Shown here piece after piece: positions 42,215 to 50,573 of a stretch of 64,000 nucleotides of DNA. A program made the position numbers and the translations under genes. Position 1 is the stretch's first letter, and each line of letters begins with the position of its first letter. The DNA is from a virus. The DNA lies in IMG/VR virus record IMGVR_UViG_3300037294_000405, positions 1-64,000 of that record. The stretch is one strand, 5' to 3'. The notes below the pieces were generated by a model. That model did no database searches and was not told the DNA's origin. It saw nothing but the letters and a program-made list of their open reading frames with translations.

Positions 42215-45200
42215 ATGAGTCAAACAAAAACAAAGGTAAGTAATGAACTTATCGAGTCTTTCCTTCAAGGTACCGACCCACAACAATACATAGTAGCGAT
42301 AGAAGCTAATTATGATAAACCAATGGTTACGCTTGTAATCAACGACAAAGATGCCACCCCAACCAAAAGGTTAGAGGACCACCCTTATAAACCATTTCTA
42401 TGGTTTAAGGATAGTGTGATTGATAAATTATACGGTGGTAAGCGTATGAAAGTAATAGAAGCATGTAGAAAATACGATATTAAAATTACATTACTTAGAA
42501 CTAATGATGACGAAGGGAATATCCCATTACGTATTGAAAACGGTTACAAGTACATGGCTATATGTAAAAAATCATACAATAACCTAGTAAATTTTTTTAA
42601 AGAAGGTGGTGTTGACGTGTTTAGTAAAGACAAAAATAGAGAATTTGTTATATTTAGTCCTACTGAACAATTTCTTATTCAAACAGGTAAGCGTTTATTT
42701 AAAGGAATGGATGATTATGACGATGTGCATAGATTTCAATTTGACTTAGAGACTGAGGGGTTATACGCTAGCAAAAACGCAATATTTCAAATTGGGGTTA
42801 GAGATAATCGAGGTTTGGAAGAAGTAATGGAAGTTAAAGGAACTAACGGCTACGAAAAACGTGATTCAGAAAGAGAAACTATCCAGAAATTCTTTAGAGT
42901 AATCGATATGGTTAAACCAGATATAATTACTGGTTATAATTCTGAAAATTTTGACTGGCCTTTCTTATTTGAACGTGCTGAACGTTTATCTGTTCCAATC
43001 ACTGAATTAGCTATCACCCTTAATAGGATTTCTAAGATTAAACGTAAACCATCAACACTTAAGTTAGGTGGTGAAACAGAAGCTTACAACCAGACACATA
43101 TGTATGGTTATAATATCATTGATATTTCACATGCTGTACGTAGAGCGATGGCAATTAATACTGAAATTAAATCATGGGGTTTAAAGTACATCACACAATA
43201 TTCCGAAATAGCTAAACCTAATCGTGTTTATGTACCTGGGGATAAAATTAATTCAACTTGGGCTGATAAGTTAAACGATTACGCTTTCAACGATGAAAAT
43301 GGTGATTGGTTTAAAATTACAGACAAGAACCCATTAAAAGAGAATTATATTAAAACTACTGGTCAATTTATTGTACAACGATACTTATGTGATGACCTTT
43401 GGGAAACTGAACAAATCGATAACATATTCAACCAAGCTAGTTTCCTTATTGCAAAGATGTTACCAACAACACTCCAACGTTCATCAACAATGGGTACTGC
43501 TGGTCAATGGAAACTTATCATGGCTGCATGGTCTTATGAAAATGGTTTAGCTATTCCAGAAACACAAACAAAAAGAGAATTTACTGGTGGTCTTTCTCGT
43601 CTACTAGAAGTAGGATACGCTAGAAATGTGGTAAAGCTGGATTATGCAGCTCTTTACCCTAAAACACAGCTTACACACAACATTTTTCCAGACTTAGATA
43701 TTAGTGGTGTAATGGAGGGAATCTTGACCTATGTGGTTGATACACGTGATAAGTTTAAATTCTTAAACGGTAAAGAAAAGAAAATCTACAAAAATTTAGA
43801 AACAAAACTTAAAGAGGAAAAAACTTTATTAGACAAAGAAAAAGAAACACTTAAAAAAGAAATACAAGAACATAAAGCTTTAGCTAACTTGTACGATAAA
43901 AAACAATTACCGCTTAAAATTCTTGGCAACTCATGGTTTGGTTCATACGGTGCACCTCATATTTTTAATTGGGGTGATACTGATTCAGCAGAAGAAACAA
44001 CATGTCGTGGTCGTCAGTATTTACGTTTGATGGTTCGACACTTTACTGAAACACATGGGTTTCGTGCACTAGTTGGTGATACCGATGGATTTAACTTTTC
44101 ATTTCCAGACAACGTTAATGACATAAAATATATAGCCAAGGGTAGCCATTGGAAAACAACGGAGGATGCTGGAAAAGAATTATCTGGGCTAGATGCTGTG
44201 TTGGCTGAGTTTAACGAAAATTATATGGAAGGTCGTATGGGGTTAGATATTGACGATATTTGTAATTCTACAATTAATTTTGCTCGTAAAAACTACGCTA
44301 ACGATATTGGTGGAAAGATTAAACTAGTAGGTAACTCGGTAAAATCTAAAAGAATGTCTGTTTACATAGAAGATTTCTTGGGTAAATCTATTCGTATGTT
44401 GTTAGACGGTGATGGTCATTCATTCATTAATTATTATTATGAATATGTCGATAGAATTTATAATTACCAAATACCTTTGGTTAAAATAGCTTCTAAAGCT
44501 AAAGTTAAGTTATCAATGACTGATTACAAGAAAAAAGCTACGATGAAAAATAAAGCTGGTAACCCATTACCTAAACAAGCACACATGGAACTAGCCATGA
44601 GAGAAGCTTTAGATATTACTTTAGGTGATGTTTTATATTACATAAATATTGGTACCTCTAAATCACAAGGTGACTTAAAAACAGTTGAGATTAATAAAAT
44701 GACTAAGAAACAAGCTGATGCTTGGAAATTGGAAAATCCAGATATGTCATTACCAGTTGTTAGGAAAGAGGTTCAATTAAACAGTAAATTAATAGACCCA
44801 GAGACTGTTGAGCGTGATTTTGAACTGATTAAAGAACTCGAAATGTTGAAAAAAGCAGTTGCTGCTTTGGAAGAAGGTGATGGGAATATTGAAGCACTAA
44901 AACTTAGAATGGAAAGCATTGATTCTCAACTATTCACCGATGAGTATAATGTTGCTCGTTACTTAGACGCATTTAATAAAAAAGTTAAACCATTATTAGT
45001 TTGTTTTGACCCAGAAATACGTGATAACATTCTTTTAGATATTGTTAAGATAAAAGATAAAGAAACTAAAAAAGTAACTGAAAAGTTAAAAGAAAGACAA
45101 ATATTCACTAGAAATGAATGTGAGTTGGTTTCTGGTATGCCTTTTAAGGAAGCTGACCAAGATTCTTACCAAGACCTAATGCGAATGGAAGATAAAGAAA

Positions 45201-46024
45201 TAAAGTTTTGGGATAAAGTTGATAAGTTACCAAATAACATGGAAGAAACTGAATGGGAAAAACTTAGAGTTGATTACCACGAACGTATGCGTATCGCTAA
45301 AATAGAAGGTCTTATTCGTGAAAAAGAAACGATAGAAGATATAATTAAACATTTAGAACTTAACGATTTAAAAAAAGCAATGCAAGGTGTGTTGCCTGTA
45401 GATATATTAGTTTTTTGCGATATTTCAGATGATGATTCGTTTTCACTTATTTCTAGAAAATGGCATGAACCATTATGTTATTTTAACGATATATTTAAGT
45501 ATGAAAAACAAGCAGTAGAACGAGATAACTACTACAAAATAGTTGGTAAAGAAAATGAGGATAATCGGTATGAAGAATGGTTAGATTATTTAGCCGAGTG
45601 TAAAGTAATGACTGGGGAAACAATAAGTTACGAATTTGAAACCATTGTTGACACTAAAAATATGAGTTTTGTGCTTGATAAGGTAAAAGAAAATTCATCC
45701 AACGTGGTTGTTGAACAAATAGTAGAGGTTAAAAAAAAGCGTGTTATGTCTGAAGGTGATGATGAAGATGATGAAATTGAAGAGGATGAAGATGGTAATT
45801 TAGTTAGAAATGATGAAGATTTAAAATTAGATGATGAATTTGATGACACGTATGGTGAGGTACCAGAAGGGTATGTAGTCGATGATACACCGTACTATGT
45901 TGATGCTGACGAACTGGCTAGTGTAAACGGAATGGATGAAGAAGCTGAATTACAACAACCAGAACCACCTAAACCAGTGGTAGAGTTTAAAAAAGAAGAA
46001 CCAGAAGATGATTGGGGTTTCTAG
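42215..46024 (+). CDS. 43: DNA polymerase, family B (gp43-like)
   Basis: Replicative polymerase with proofreading. Exonuclease motif I is RFQFDLETEGLY (Asp177, Glu179) and motif II ITGYNSENFDWPFL. Polymerase motif A is KLDYAALYPKTQ (about residue 476), motif B LKILGNSWFGSYGAP (about 568) and motif C LVGDTDGFNFSF (about 620), with the two metal Asp in DTD. At 1269 residues it is far longer than T4 gp43 (898): about 250 helical residues follow the thumb (from MTKKQADAWKLENPDMSL), and the tail from about residue 1185 is extremely acidic (EGDDEDDEIEEDEDGN), ending EEPEDDWGF, which looks like a sliding-clamp contact. It ends at TAG and is followed by a terminator. Confidence 0.96.
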   Translation: MSQTKTKVSNELIESFLQGTDPQQYIVAIEANYDKPMVTLVINDKDATPTKRLEDHPYKPFLWFKDSVIDKLYGGKRMKVIEACRKYDIKITLLRTNDDEGNIPLRIENGYKYMAICKKSYNNLVNFFKEGGVDVFSKDKNREFVIFSPTEQFLIQTGKRLFKGMDDYDDVHRFQFDLETEGLYASKNAIFQIGVRDNRGLEEVMEVKGTNGYEKRDSERETIQKFFRVIDMVKPDIITGYNSENFDWPFLFERAERLSVPITELAITLNRISKIKRKPSTLKLGGETEAYNQTHMYGYNIIDISHAVRRAMAINTEIKSWGLKYITQYSEIAKPNRVYVPGDKINSTWADKLNDYAFNDENGDWFKITDKNPLKENYIKTTGQFIVQRYLCDDLWETEQIDNIFNQASFLIAKMLPTTLQRSSTMGTAGQWKLIMAAWSYENGLAIPETQTKREFTGGLSRLLEVGYARNVVKLDYAALYPKTQLTHNIFPDLDISGVMEGILTYVVDTRDKFKFLNGKEKKIYKNLETKLKEEKTLLDKEKETLKKEIQEHKALANLYDKKQLPLKILGNSWFGSYGAPHIFNWGDTDSAEETTCRGRQYLRLMVRHFTETHGFRALVGDTDGFNFSFPDNVNDIKYIAKGSHWKTTEDAGKELSGLDAVLAEFNENYMEGRMGLDIDDICNSTINFARKNYANDIGGKIKLVGNSVKSKRMSVYIEDFLGKSIRMLLDGDGHSFINYYYEYVDRIYNYQIPLVKIASKAKVKLSMTDYKKKATMKNKAGNPLPKQAHMELAMREALDITLGDVLYYINIGTSKSQGDLKTVEINKMTKKQADAWKLENPDMSLPVVRKEVQLNSKLIDPETVERDFELIKELEMLKKAVAALEEGDGNIEALKLRMESIDSQLFTDEYNVARYLDAFNKKVKPLLVCFDPEIRDNILLDIVKIKDKETKKVTEKLKERQIFTRNECELVSGMPFKEADQDSYQDLMRMEDKEIKFWDKVDKLPNNMEETEWEKLRVDYHERMRIAKIEGLIREKETIEDIIKHLELNDLKKAMQGVLPVDILVFCDISDDDSFSLISRKWHEPLCYFNDIFKYEKQAVERDNYYKIVGKENEDNRYEEWLDYLAECKVMTGETISYEFETIVDTKNMSFVLDKVKENSSNVVVEQIVEVKKKRVMSEGDDEDDEIEEDEDGNLVRNDEDLKLDDEFDDTYGEVPEGYVVDDTPYYVDADELASVNGMDEEAELQQPEPPKPVVEFKKEEPEDDWGF

Positions 46025-46031
46025 AAATAAT

Positions 46032-46056
46032 AAAGGGGCTTACGCCCCTTTTTTTA
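46032..46056 (+). terminator. Terminator after DNA polymerase (bidirectional)
   Basis: AAAGGGGC-TTAC-GCCCCTTT followed by a T run. It ends 3 bp before the stop codon of the displaced neck-gene 3' stub, so it was once the shared terminator of the two convergent genes. Confidence 0.9.
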
Positions 46057-46058
46057 TT

Positions 46059-46136
46059 TTAATAAACCCAGAACCCTAGTGGTCTGTATTTCATCGATGT
46101 ATTTAAGTCTGTTGCTTCTTTAGCACCTCTTTCTAA
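46059..46136 (-). pseudogene. Remnant 3' end of the neck-protein gene (25 codons plus stop)
   Basis: Minus-strand frame reads LERGAKEATDLNTSMKYRPL then GFWVY and TAA. The intact gene at 47077 ends LERGALEAGYLNTSMKYRPL then GFWVY and TAA, so 21 of 25 residues agree. A 28-nt stretch (46081-46108) is identical to 47099-47126. Upstream of LERG the frame runs into an A/T tract and has no further similarity. It is cut from its gene by the endonuclease gene between them. Confidence 0.9.
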
Positions 46137-46165
46137 TTTTTTTTTTATCTTTTTAAATTTATCAC

Positions 46166-46181
46166 ATATTTATTATTAAAA
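46166..46181 (+). promoter_or_regulatory. Late-type promoter motif
   Basis: ATATTTATTATTAAAA, 4 bp before the ATG of the endonuclease. Confidence 0.6.
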
Positions 46182-46185
46182 AGAT

Positions 46186-47097
46186 ATGTGTATTAAAAGA
46201 ACAAACAGTAAAGGGACAACAGAGGGTTTTATAATTAAATCTAAAAACATTCACGGAGATAAATTTGATTATTCTAGAGTTATTTATATTAAAAGTAAAG
46301 AAAAAGTGAAAATTATTTGTTTATATCATGGGGAGTTTGAACAAACACCAGATAACCATATAAATAATAAGCAAGGTTGTCCACTATGTGCTAATAATGT
46401 TAAACTTTCCACTAAAGAATTTATAAAAAAATGTAACCAAATACATAATTTTAGATACGAATATTTAGTTACAATATATATAAATGATAAGACTAAAGTG
46501 TTAATAACTTGTAACTTACACGGTGTATTTGAACAAAAGGCTGGTAATCATTTTAGGGGGGATGGTTGTCCAAAATGTAGTGGTAATTATATGGATACAA
46601 ATTATTTTATTAACAAGGTTAAATTAATTCATGGGGGTAAGTATGATTATTCGTTAACTAATTATATATCACAACAAAAAAAAATAAAAATAATTTGTCC
46701 AAAACACGGTATGTTTAAACAAAACCCAAATAATCATATTAATGGTAATGGTTGCCCTATTTGTAAAGAATCTAAGGGTGAGCGTTTTATTAGTGAATTT
46801 CTAATAAATAATAATATTAATTTTATCCCACAATATAGGTTTAGTGATTGTAGGGATATATTACCATTACCTTTTGACTTTTATTTACCAGATTATAATA
46901 CATGTATCGAATTTAATGGGAGACAACATTATATACCAATAAAAATTTGGGGTGGGGATAATACTTTAAAAGAAATTAAGAAAAGAGATAAGATAAAAAT
47001 GGAATATTGTACCACTAACAATATTCCATTAATAAGTATTAAATATAATCAAAACATATTATCTAAATTGAATTATTTAATAAACCCAAAAACCTAA
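46186..47097 (+). CDS. Free-standing homing endonuclease with zinc-finger repeats and Vsr-like (EDxHD) nuclease domain
   Basis: Residues 1-195 hold three related repeats, each a helix followed by VKIICLYHGEFEQTPDNH-like strands and a CPLC/CPKC/CPIC knuckle with upstream Cys/His, a zinc-binding array for DNA recognition. Residues about 200-303 hold the nuclease: GERFISEFLINNNINF, PFDFYLPDYNTCIEFNGRQH and the downstream KRDKIKMEYC, the Vsr-like/EDxHD arrangement known from homing enzymes such as I-Bth0305I. The stop codon lies 21 bp inside the 3' end of the convergent neck gene, so the last six codons are the complement of that gene's end. A second copy of that gene end lies on its upstream side. 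Confidence 0.88.
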   Translation: MCIKRTNSKGTTEGFIIKSKNIHGDKFDYSRVIYIKSKEKVKIICLYHGEFEQTPDNHINNKQGCPLCANNVKLSTKEFIKKCNQIHNFRYEYLVTIYINDKTKVLITCNLHGVFEQKAGNHFRGDGCPKCSGNYMDTNYFINKVKLIHGGKYDYSLTNYISQQKKIKIICPKHGMFKQNPNNHINGNGCPICKESKGERFISEFLINNNINFIPQYRFSDCRDILPLPFDFYLPDYNTCIEFNGRQHYIPIKIWGGDNTLKEIKKRDKIKMEYCTTNNIPLISIKYNQNILSKLNYLINPKT

Positions 47098-48216
47098 AGG
47101 TCTGTATTTCATCGATGTATTTAAGTATCCAGCCTCAAGAGCTCCACGTTCTAGTTGTGTTGTGGATGAAAGTCTAAGTAGTCTAGCCTCCAATCTTTCT
47201 AACACAGCTTTTTTCTCTTCATTACCTTCGGAGATAAGTGTTTCATAATCCATAGTTCTTTCTGCTTCTGGAGGTCCAACAACCCCACCAAACTTACCTC
47301 TAGTTCTACCTAAAGCTCTTTTAGCTTCTGCAATAAATAATTGACGAATAAGTGTTTTTGTTGGTTCGTTAAATTCAGCGTAATCTAATCTGGCTAAAGG
47401 GACTTGGTTTGGCATTTTAATTATATCTGGGTTATCCTCTTTACATTTATCTAAATTTTCTGGAGTCGTGTCATAATAATGATACCAAACTTGGCAACCT
47501 GTCATATTTATTGAGCTACCTACCCCACCCATTCCTTGTCCAAATGATAATTTAGAGCCAGGAGTACTCATTAAATGCAATAATTTAGTACCATTTGGAC
47601 CAGCAGTAACTTTGTGAACTAATTCACTTCTAACGATACGATTTTTTAAGTTCATATCGGCAGCCGTTAAAAGAATATCAAAAGCTGGTGCGATATAATA
47701 ACCTTGTCTACCGTTAGGACCACCTGTACCAACGCCACCACCTGTTTGTGCAAACCCACCACCAAAACCGTAATCAATACCACCATAGTTAGCCAATAAT
47801 GCTTGACTAGTTGGAGGAGGGGTAACCCATAATACTTCATTTATTTCACGACCAGCTGGAATAACATAAACTTGTCTACCAGCCTCAATTTCAACGTAGT
47901 CTTTTTTTAACTCCCACGGACCATTAGACTGCAAACCAACTTGTTTTGAGTACGCATAAGTATATTGTGTCATGAAATCAAAATTTCTAACACTCAAAGC
48001 AAATGCCATGTCTGTCGTATCTAAATTTTGCCCTAATAAAGATTGCCATTGGTGTTCAACTAACCATTCTTGGACATATTGAGCATAGTCCTCTATTGAA
48101 ATTTCTAATAGGGTACAAAGTTGCTCATCTTCCAATTCAATTTTACGCACTGGTGCGCCCAATGAATGTCTGAATTGTCGAAATAATTTTTCTTTTTCTT
48201 CTATAGTTACTGACAT
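47077..48216 (-). CDS. Neck/head-completion protein (gp13-like)
   Basis: The N-terminus MSVTIEEKEKLFRQFRHSLG and APVRKIELEDEQLCTLLEIS with EDYAQYVQEWLVEHQWQSLL match the helical start of T4-family neck proteins (gp13), which close the filled head and form the tail docking site. The middle is Gly/Pro-rich with an insert (DYGFGGGFAQTGGGVGTGGP), and the C-terminal half carries KRALGRTRGKFGGVVGPPEA and the SMKYRPLGFWVY end. That end is present twice in the genome region; the copy used here adjoins the homing gene. A consensus late motif precedes the start. The gp13 assignment is by pattern and position near sheath-side genes. Confidence 0.72.
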   Translation of the reverse strand: MSVTIEEKEKLFRQFRHSLGAPVRKIELEDEQLCTLLEISIEDYAQYVQEWLVEHQWQSLLGQNLDTTDMAFALSVRNFDFMTQYTYAYSKQVGLQSNGPWELKKDYVEIEAGRQVYVIPAGREINEVLWVTPPPTSQALLANYGGIDYGFGGGFAQTGGGVGTGGPNGRQGYYIAPAFDILLTAADMNLKNRIVRSELVHKVTAGPNGTKLLHLMSTPGSKLSFGQGMGGVGSSINMTGCQVWYHYYDTTPENLDKCKEDNPDIIKMPNQVPLARLDYAEFNEPTKTLIRQLFIAEAKRALGRTRGKFGGVVGPPEAERTMDYETLISEGNEEKKAVLERLEARLLRLSSTTQLERGALEAGYLNTSMKYRPLGFWVY

Positions 48217-48511: not shown

Positions 48512-48721
48512 TTACATTGTTATTAAGTCATCTACCAATAAAGCAGTTATTTCATCTTCTGTTAATTTTTTATCACCCATAATTATATTGATGATGTCTT
48601 TTTTACTATTTAACATAGACCACATTCTACTCGAAATAGTATCGTCAAATAATTGATAGTAAACATTGACATCATTTTTTTGACCAATACGGAATGCTCT
48701 ATCTTCTGCTTGTTCATTGTT
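48512..48721 (-). pseudogene. Remnant 3' end of the SNF2 helicase gene (70 codons incl. stop)
   Basis: Minus-strand frame reads NNEQAEDRAFRIGQKNDVNV and continues to LLVDDLITM. The intact helicase ends with NNEQAEDRAYRIGQKNDVNV and a matching tail, so the final 70 or so codons exist twice in tandem. The similarity starts abruptly at NNEQ, 5 bp from the end of the intact gene. An ATG at 48739 lies in the overlap but is not a plausible independent gene start, since the fragment is only helicase motif VI and the tail. Confidence 0.88.
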
Positions 48722-48725
48722 CCAA

Positions 48726-50573
48726 TTATAAATCACCATTCAATATTTTTTGGATTAATAAATCTGTTTCATTTTCTTTGGTTATATTTTCAACACCTAA
48801 TATTATGTTAATTATTTCTTGTTTTTGTTTTAAAGTTTCCCACATCCTTATTGATATAGTGTCGTCAAATAATTGATAATAAACATTAACATCATTCTTT
48901 TGTCCAATTCTATACGCTCTATCTTCAGCTTGTTCGTTATTACCAGTAACCCAATCAAATGAGTTAAAAATAACCACAGTTGCTTCAGTAAGTGTGATAC
49001 CAACACCAGCAGATTTTATATTACCAACAAAAACTTTTACTTTATCATTGTTCTGAAACACATCAACTGATTTTTGTTTTTGTAATGTTGTCATTGGGCC
49101 ATTGTGTTTAACCGCCAATTTACCAAAGTGATTAGATATCATTTCTAATTCATCAGTGAAATTAGTGAATACTATCACTTTACGACCCATTTCAATAGCG
49201 TTTTCTACCATTTCAATAGTATAAGGGATAGCTTCTTGTGCGATAAATTGTCTAAGTAGGATAAGTTCAACTAAATCTTTTTGTAGGTTATCTGTTTTCT
49301 TACCCTCTAATTTTCTTTTTTGTAAGTATTCTTCCCAAAGTAATTCATATTGTTTAAGACCTTTTTTATCTAATATATGGTGCATAGGTGTCACTACTTT
49401 ATCTGGCATATCCAATACTTCAGTTTTTAAACGTCTAATAATAGTGTTTTTGGTTTTATTGGCTAATTCTTCTAAATTACTAGCACCATCAGTAAGCCAT
49501 ATTTGTTTTCTTTGACCATTCTTAAGGGTTCTAAAGAACTTTCTACCGTCACAATACCTTACAGCATAATGTTTCCAATTATCTGCGATAGGGGACTTAA
49601 TAATCTTTAAAAGATTAAAGAAATCCATAGGTCTATTTGCGACAGGTGTACCAGTTAACAACCAAACTCTCTCTATTTTTTCTTTAGCACAAAGTTCCAC
49701 CATTATTTTACCTCTAATACTTTCATTATTTTTTAAATAATGAGCCTCATCAATAATACATAAATCATAATTAGCGTTTATCAATTCTCTATTTAAAATT
49801 TCTTCTGGTTCACCTTCTTTTGGTTTTTTACCAGAAGATAAAGTATGGAAATTTTTAAGGATATCAAAATTAATTATCGTAAATTTAGCGTCACTCCATT
49901 TTTTACCGTCAATAATTGTTGTGTCATCACAAAAAACATTAATTTCACGCTCCCAATTAATTTTTGTTGATGATGGGCAAACAACTAATATTTTTTTAGC
50001 ACCGCTTTCTAAAGCGGCAACAATTGACTGAATAGATTTACCTAAACCCATGTCATCTGCTAGTATACAACCTTTCCTAGATAACAAAAACTTTATACCA
50101 TCTTCTTGATGTTGGTAAAGTTTTTTGTTATCTAAAGATAAAACTTCATTGTATTTTGAAAAATCAACGTTTACATTTATCGATTCAAAATATGGGTCAT
50201 CAGTTAGTTGTGTTTTAGGCAACCAATACATTTTAGACTCTTTTTGGTTTTGTTTTAGTTTACCGTATATATGAAATGTTTTATCTGTATCAGCAAGGAT
50301 GAATTCAATTAAAACTTTTTCTGGTGTAAAAGATAACTCATCTATTTTTTTTAGTTCTTCACCTAGATAAGGTGTTATACCAACAACCCTATTAATGAAG
50401 AGAGGTTCCCTTTCATGGTTTTCAGTAATGTATTTTGATTGGTTTTCAGTTAAAGCCAATTTATTATTTTTCAAAAAAGCTATTTTTAGTTTTTTGATGT
50501 ATGGATTTATCCCTTCATATGCCTCAAGCAATGAAATAGCTGAATGTCCTCGTATATCGTCTAAATTTATCAA
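48726..50573 (-). CDS. SNF2-family DNA helicase/translocase
   Basis: Superfamily 2 ATPase, likely remodelling forks or recombination intermediates in the role T4 gives to UvsW. Motif I is GCILADDMGLGKSIQSIVAA, motif II LCIIDEAHYLKNNESI, motif III WLLTGTPVANRPMDF, motif V AGVGITLTEATVVIF and motif VI EQAEDRAYRIGQ. The N-terminal 150 residues resemble the HARP-like region of small SNF2 proteins. No ATG fits: an in-frame stop lies four codons upstream, so the start is TTG at 50573 after AAAAACAAAAAG. A near-consensus host-type promoter lies upstream. The last 70 codons are duplicated downstream. Confidence 0.92.
   Translation of the reverse strand: MINLDDIRGHSAISLLEAYEGINPYIKKLKIAFLKNNKLALTENQSKYITENHEREPLFINRVVGITPYLGEELKKIDELSFTPEKVLIEFILADTDKTFHIYGKLKQNQKESKMYWLPKTQLTDDPYFESINVNVDFSKYNEVLSLDNKKLYQHQEDGIKFLLSRKGCILADDMGLGKSIQSIVAALESGAKKILVVCPSSTKINWEREINVFCDDTTIIDGKKWSDAKFTIINFDILKNFHTLSSGKKPKEGEPEEILNRELINANYDLCIIDEAHYLKNNESIRGKIMVELCAKEKIERVWLLTGTPVANRPMDFFNLLKIIKSPIADNWKHYAVRYCDGRKFFRTLKNGQRKQIWLTDGASNLEELANKTKNTIIRRLKTEVLDMPDKVVTPMHHILDKKGLKQYELLWEEYLQKRKLEGKKTDNLQKDLVELILLRQFIAQEAIPYTIEMVENAIEMGRKVIVFTNFTDELEMISNHFGKLAVKHNGPMTTLQKQKSVDVFQNNDKVKVFVGNIKSAGVGITLTEATVVIFNSFDWVTGNNEQAEDRAYRIGQKNDVNVYYQLFDDTISIRMWETLKQKQEIINIILGVENITKENETDLLIQKILNGDL

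Follow-up and report, generated by a model that had tools for sequence, protein, structure and literature searches.

Our analysis shows that the 3' end now used by a phage neck gene is foreign and was carried in by an element, rather than being a duplicate of the gene's old end. This element, ~1.02 kb long, very likely consists of a homing-endonuclease-like gene (HEG) plus a replacement gene end, which we term the patch; it is found in two genetic backgrounds, and the recipient's displaced gene end remains beyond it as an orphan fragment, the stub. The locus lies in a 64,000-nt stretch of viral DNA (hereafter the window; positions 1 to 64,000 of IMG/VR record IMGVR_UViG_3300037294_000405) from a 155-kb source genome. 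We consider it very likely (probability ~0.87) that positions 46059-47160 are a terminus-replacing homing element, in which cutting, immunity and the repair route are inferred.

Two neck gene ends flank a homing-endonuclease-like gene

The locus and related features are arranged as follows, in window coordinates unless stated.

42215-46024, plus strand: family B DNA polymerase (PF03104, PF00136), convergent neighbor of the neck gene
46025-46058, no strand: terminator, from the polymerase stop to the original neck stop; the ancestral convergent junction, the same in relative L019
46059-46138, minus strand: stub, the displaced original neck 3' end, defined by alignment to L019
46139-46185, plus strand: AT-rich 5' flank of the HEG; an A-tract (neck sense) at its end joins the stub, and L035 has it too
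46186-47097, plus strand: HEG, 303 aa, with treble-clef zinc-finger repeats and a Vsr-like nuclease domain
47077-47160, minus strand: patch, the foreign, element-borne neck 3' end; junction with the neck body from the L019 alignment
47077-48216, minus strand: neck (head-tail adaptor-like) gene, chimeric as it now stands (phrog_211 match, E=4e-7)
48512-48722, minus strand: orphan helicase 3' stub, scar of a second element whose HNH/RHH cargo was deleted; the intact element is in L019
48726-50573, minus strand: SNF2-type helicase, whose 3' end from motif NEQAEDR onward is a patch as well
G000:C1 117431-120050, outside the window: doubly patched RuvC-like resolvase region with GIY-YIG and HNH genes and orphan stubs of both original ends

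The two neck 3' ends form a direct repeat, 1,018 bp apart and 79% identical over 86 nt, that includes an identical 28-nt block (46081-46108 and 47099-47126). The stub is an orphan 26-codon neck end with an intact reading frame, and its stop codon (46059-46061) abuts the polymerase terminator. Its peptide, KLERGAKEATDLNTSMKYRPLGFWVY followed by a stop, agrees with the intact neck end, QLERGALEAGYLNTSMKYRPLGFWVY followed by a stop, at 22/26 residues (84.6%). This similarity is far above chance (ungapped score 119, versus a shuffle maximum of 27) and is recovered by tblastn across the whole 155-kb genome with E = 1e-10. The HEG ends 21 bp within the neck 3' end, its last 21 nt being antisense to the patch. 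The neck locus is thereby a case of a nuclease gene sitting between a full-length target gene and a fragment of that same target's end.

A first-pass annotation made from the sequence alone had proposed two neck 3' ends flanking a homing gene, an identical 28-nt block, a HEG stop 21 bp inside the new 3' end on the opposite strand, and a stub stop at the polymerase terminator that marks the ancestral junction. All four claims held; its count of 21 of 25 identical residues was a slight undercount, and it missed the foreign origin of the in-use end. We rejected a group I intron or intein, since the neck ORF runs uninterrupted to its own stop and the HEG lies outside it on the other strand. An assembly artifact was likewise rejected, since many contigs from separate samples share the architecture.

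The in-use neck end is foreign and the stub is native

We compared the locus with 80 relatives of the neck gene from IMG/VR. The neck-polymerase junction is empty in 62 of the 80, with the polymerase end ≤130 nt from the neck end and a short terminator region between; the gap is longer in 13, four stop short of the polymerase, and L035 alone carries a HEG there. A shorter, HEG-less allele, named beforehand by the first-pass annotation as a test, thus exists in these 62 relatives. No cultured relative of the neck gene or of the resolvase gene was detected in the phage collection by tblastn. As a separate observation, the polymerase is interrupted near residues 620-640 in L043, L046, L052, L053 and L071.

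The neck body of the window is closest to L019 (85.5% nucleotide identity). Its stub is also closest to L019, an empty allele, at 95.8% over 75 nt, and the terminator matches L019 too. In contrast, the last 75 nt of the in-use end are 93.1% identical to L045 versus 80.6% to L019, and the neck body of L045 is only 79.3% identical to that of the window. L045 carries a patch-type neck end without a HEG; we do not distinguish a donor lineage from a post-loss state. Aligned to empty L019, the foreign end spans 47077 to ~47160; placed on the L019 allele, the body end and the stub start lie 4 nt from each other.

The L035 locus represents a parallel insertion. Its HEG is 65% identical to that of the window, has the same stop overlap, and has also left a neck-end stub. 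The L035 neck is 96.0% identical to empty L048 in its body and 98.6% in its stub, against 68% in its in-use end. Both insertions fall at the same codon boundary, native ST[SA]Q/LERG. Because body and stub match an empty relative better than the in-use end does in both the window and L035, at one shared codon boundary, we conclude that HEG and patch together form the element. These comparisons show that the window neck gene is a chimera of a recipient body and a foreign end, and that the stub descends from the recipient's previous neck end, at 95.8% and 98.6% to empty relatives in the window and L035, respectively.

The neck element encodes a putative zinc-finger nuclease with a Vsr-like predicted fold

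The families matched by the window HEG are phage "HNH endonuclease / homing endonuclease" (phrog_559, E=2e-81), along with models of treble-clef zinc fingers; the protein is free-standing and has three repeats of this finger. Conservation across the family extends over the C-terminal domain, with E199, D231, E242, Q247, H248 and D268 invariant in 13 members. The predicted fold of this domain (pLDDT 82.6) has E. coli Vsr (1vsr) as its top Foldseek match, with probability 1.00, but E=0.03 and a target TM of 0.47. Searches by sequence against the PDB matched no solved structure, and Pfam and PHROGs revealed no intein or LAGLIDADG domain, only zinc-finger and phage endonuclease models.

The point of resemblance to EDxHD homing endonucleases such as I-Bth0305I, a family named in PMC6083498, is the Vsr-like nuclease domain predicted for the window HEG. 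The window HEG differs in being free-standing, in its three treble-clef zinc-finger repeats and in matching no solved structure by sequence. The first-pass annotation had labeled the gene EDxHD/zinc-finger: the zinc fingers were matched, and the EDxHD assignment is plausible given the predicted Vsr-like fold.

Other genes carry replaced 3' ends

SNF2 helicase elements lie adjacent to the neck gene in L003, L018, L019, L058/59/61 and L087. Beyond the helicase 3' end come a convergent HNH gene with an overlapping stop, a ribbon-helix-helix (RHH)-like ORF and then a helicase stub that begins at motif NEQAEDR, 66-68 codons before the stop; most other relatives have a single helicase end. In L040/L042 the helicase HNH gene is present and no stub was detectable. 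The window helicase has two tandem 3' ends (48512-48932), a patch and a stub, with no nuclease. Compared with L019, the cargo was deleted between two copies of ATTTATAAT, with 9-nt microhomology at the join. Two further observations concern this gene: the L019 element has a TnpB-like ORF (388 aa) beside the HNH gene, at -3971 to -2805 from the neck start, and in L047, L052, L055, L064 and L034 the helicase ORF is enlarged in frame by long insertions (950-1334 aa where listed), which are probably inteins.

A glutaredoxin gene has a convergent HEG of the window's family in L059/L061, L057 and L009. In these loci the glutaredoxin ends in atypical codons, and the usual final codons are found on the far side of the HEG. 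From the glutaredoxin breakpoint to the neck start, covering stub and flank, L059 is identical to empty L068. These stubs are short, and our first stub scan missed them because patch and stub were too diverged; they were found via empty relatives. A gene encoding a 315-aa protein is a further 3' target in L085/L086, with empty relatives L127, L128 and L130; here patch and stub are difficult to distinguish (91.7 versus 94.7%). In L097, a GNAT-like gene is another 3' target, with a stub resembling L132-L136 and a patch resembling L137.

Replaced 5' ends and a doubly patched resolvase

A second member of the window HEG family lies in the same genome at 129791-130699 (locus L002), preceded by an orphan gene start, MKIKFRYIMLFLALSVAGCAAYFSV followed by a stop, and followed by a 386-aa gene that begins MNFKYIMLITAIIIAITSAGFSI. 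Sixteen HEG-less relatives have the orphan-type start fused to this gene. The same 5'-end arrangement is found at a phosphoesterase gene in L092, L095, L107 and L160. L095 forms a near-isogenic pair with L157, to which it is 100% identical in the stub over 139 nt and 98.1% in the body, against 60.3% in the patch. The adjacent upstream gene of L095 has a changed 3' end, TYKT/RYHLREWKKY-stop instead of TYKT/KFSDRAWKLIN-stop, followed by a GIY-YIG gene co-oriented with the target and then by the displaced tail.

A scan of the 155-kb genome for gene ends duplicated within 6 kb recovered the neck and helicase loci and revealed a RuvC-like resolvase gene (~118437-119093) patched at both ends. On its 5' side lie a 5' stub, an RHH ORF, a GIY-YIG gene and the patched start; on its 3' side, the patched end, a convergent HNH gene and a 3' stub. 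Native versions of both ends are present in many relatives. The remaining hits of the scan look like ordinary paralogy and were set aside. This one genome thus holds five replacement events: neck, helicase scar, both resolvase ends and the 386-aa gene.

Across the phage group, the architecture recurs at nine target genes, at 3' and 5' ends, with EDxHD/Vsr-like, HNH and GIY-YIG nucleases. The HEG stop overlaps the patch in most cases, and the stub start and patch/body junction coincide within ~4-12 nt. Stubs at loci other than neck are 8 to 66 codons long and follow the breakpoint, not a domain. Terminus replacement is one lifestyle of these nucleases and not their only one, because most of the cultured-phage loci sampled (n=16) have no stub and Streptococcus phage P7154 has a HEG with neither patch nor stub, its TerL 5' end aligning with HEG-less phages from codon 2. 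In L121 (Lactococcus phage WRP3, 2925-4400), a translated direct repeat (score 88) flanks a zinc-finger HEG beside ribonucleotide reductase and is not clearly a coding end. L121 and L123 were dropped as further cultured examples, as their repeats are not shown to be gene ends.

Gain and loss are both represented among sampled loci

In the sister phage L243/L244, the resolvase 3' end is identical to the patch up to TATGCTTGTG and to the stub from CTATAGG on, and runs into the downstream gene. This hybrid is the product expected if patch and stub recombined and removed the HNH gene, and we infer from its sequence that it is likely an excision product. The first-pass annotation had proposed such excision by repeat recombination at the neck; it was not seen there, and the expected product was seen at this resolvase. 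The GIY-YIG gene of L243/L244 is reduced to a C-terminal fragment with microhomology at the join, and in L161, L225 and L163 nothing but a C-terminal HEG fragment precedes a retained patch-type start. Because of the L243/L244 hybrid and the HEG remnants in L161, L225 and L163, invasion, decay and patch retention are all represented among the sampled loci. The L095/L157 pair shows gain and the L243 hybrid, an apparent excision, shows loss.

A model for terminus replacement

Sequence comparison shows the structure, the foreign patch, the insertion point, the parallel insertions and the loss products. Cutting at the breakpoint, immunity of the patched allele via sequence divergence, and repair with body and stub as arms are inferred by analogy with yeast WHO elements and mitochondrial elements; for WHO elements, cutting, allele-specific resistance and gene conversion have been demonstrated (PMC7282813).

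In this model, the zinc-finger/Vsr-like nuclease would act on a co-infecting phage that has not been invaded, cutting its conserved neck coding sequence at a predicted site on the codon boundary ST[AS]Q/LERG, ~80 bp 5' of the stop; on an L019-type empty neck end, the inferred cut would fall near CATCCACA/TCGC/AATTAG. The invaded genome would serve as the repair template, its homology arms being the neck body on one side and the donor's own stub plus downstream DNA on the other. Repair would copy in patch and HEG, and the diverged patch would complete the recipient gene, leaving it whole and no longer cut, with the recipient's old 3' end as an orphan stub beyond the HEG. The nuclease may later be lost, either by microhomology deletion, in which patch and stub stay, or by patch-stub recombination, which would yield a hybrid end.

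Alternative explanations

A simple tandem duplication of the neck 3' end within the lineage, with the HEG landing between the copies later, would account for two directly oriented copies that share an identical 28-nt block. The copies are not sisters, however, with the stub nearest to L019 and the in-use end nearest to L045, and L095 matches the empty allele at 100% in the stub against 60% in the patch. Independent duplications also do not predict recurrence at nine genes with three nuclease families, and we consider this explanation very unlikely. We also hold little confidence in the HEG as a passenger, with ordinary phage mosaicism (homologous recombination between relatives) making the chimeras and nuclease genes merely accumulating at the junctions. 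HEGs are known at boundaries of inter-phage exchange (PMC10448857), and some, as in P7154, have no patch. Yet the stub start and the patch/body junction coincide to within ~4-12 nt, and a nuclease gene flanked by both ends is not what ordinary recombination would leave. In most cases, moreover, the HEG runs into the patch at its stop, and related HEGs occur with the same patch type at the same codon in two backgrounds.

The stub could instead be a functional alternative 3' end, with recombination switching between neck C-termini. The intact stub reading frame at the neck locus and the patch-stub recombination at another locus in L243 favor this idea. Against it, the stub lacks both a start codon and a neck body and sits beyond the HEG, recombination would delete the HEG irreversibly, the C-termini differ at few positions (4/26), and the other stubs track the breakpoint rather than a domain. 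We regard switching as all but excluded, and retain terminus replacement by a homing element as the preferred reading.

Relationship to known systems

The closest parallels are the WHO elements of Torulaspora and Lachancea yeasts (Coughlan et al, 2020; PMC7282813). There, a free-standing endonuclease gene lies beside its target, in some cases in the opposite orientation; homing swaps the target's 3' end for an element-borne, cleavage-resistant version, and the displaced 3' end survives as a downstream fragment, proposed to act as a second homology arm (PMC7282813). WHO elements are nuclear, use one intein-like/zinc-finger nuclease family, and replace 3' ends only, mainly of one target (FBA1), whereas the phage elements involve three unrelated nuclease families, nine targets and both 3' and 5' ends, with the nuclease stop usually overlapping the patch. 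Cleavage has been shown for WHO6 and is inferred for the phage elements. The window HEG is not of the WHO family by descent: it has a Vsr-like fold and lacks an intein-like (LAGLIDADG) domain fused to its zinc finger.

Mobile ORFs of fungal mitochondria, in Allomyces atp6 and in Glomus atp6, atp9, cox2 and nad3, likewise pair an endonuclease ORF with a foreign C-terminus (Beaudet et al, 2013; PMC3630166) and leave behind a native C-terminus that is nearer to relatives than the inserted one (PMC3630166). They differ in having LAGLIDADG or GIY-YIG nucleases, in affecting 3' ends only, and in an ORF that is sometimes in frame with the host gene. The free-standing HEGs of T4-like phages (Seg, Mob; reviewed in PMC2988022) resemble the elements described here in being phage nucleases located next to conserved genes and propagated through double-strand-break repair, but that review describes neither replaced gene ends nor orphan stubs; the immunity of these HEGs has been attributed to co-conversion of the nearby target (PMC12724721). 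We found no phage precedent, and no 5'-end precedent, in the open-access literature searched; subscription papers were mostly outside the search, so novelty is unproven.

Introns and inteins let homing genes occupy conserved sequence by splicing out; free-standing ones are generally regarded as sheltering in intergenic space. The phage loci point to a third solution, bringing a spare gene end, that is known for 3' ends in yeast WHO elements and fungal mitochondria; that phages use it at either end of a gene and with three unrelated nucleases suggests that one general strategy evolved repeatedly. A bolder reading, which we think likely, is that terminus-replacing homing elements are a general, nuclease-independent phage class: EDxHD/Vsr-like, HNH and GIY-YIG genes would each have acquired patches for either gene end, conserved essential sequence would be cut harmlessly without an intron or intein, and core gene ends would be repeatedly rewritten (one gene at both), with patches outlasting the nuclease. 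Terminus replacement accounts for orphan pieces of gene ends next to phage nucleases and for sharp mosaic breakpoints within core genes, and the phage loci supply ready-made pairs of empty and patched alleles.

A further candidate target and recurring neighbors

In L088 (4004-4918) and L091 (3998-4933), HEGs face an AAA ATPase gene in convergent orientation, and a short sequence that may be a stub (MGFKVN-stop) precedes a terminator. On this arrangement alone, the gene is likely a tenth target. Small ribbon-helix-helix-like ORFs lie repeatedly beside nuclease genes, in the helicase elements of L003, L018, L019 and L059, at G000 117526-117702, and in the 5' flanks of L088 and L091, and may possibly encode regulators. 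Finally, the motif TTATATTTATAA, likely a phage promoter, recurs shortly 5' of the start codons of many ORFs, including the neck start in L004, L068 and most relatives, and a copy of it supplied the microhomology of the helicase deletion.
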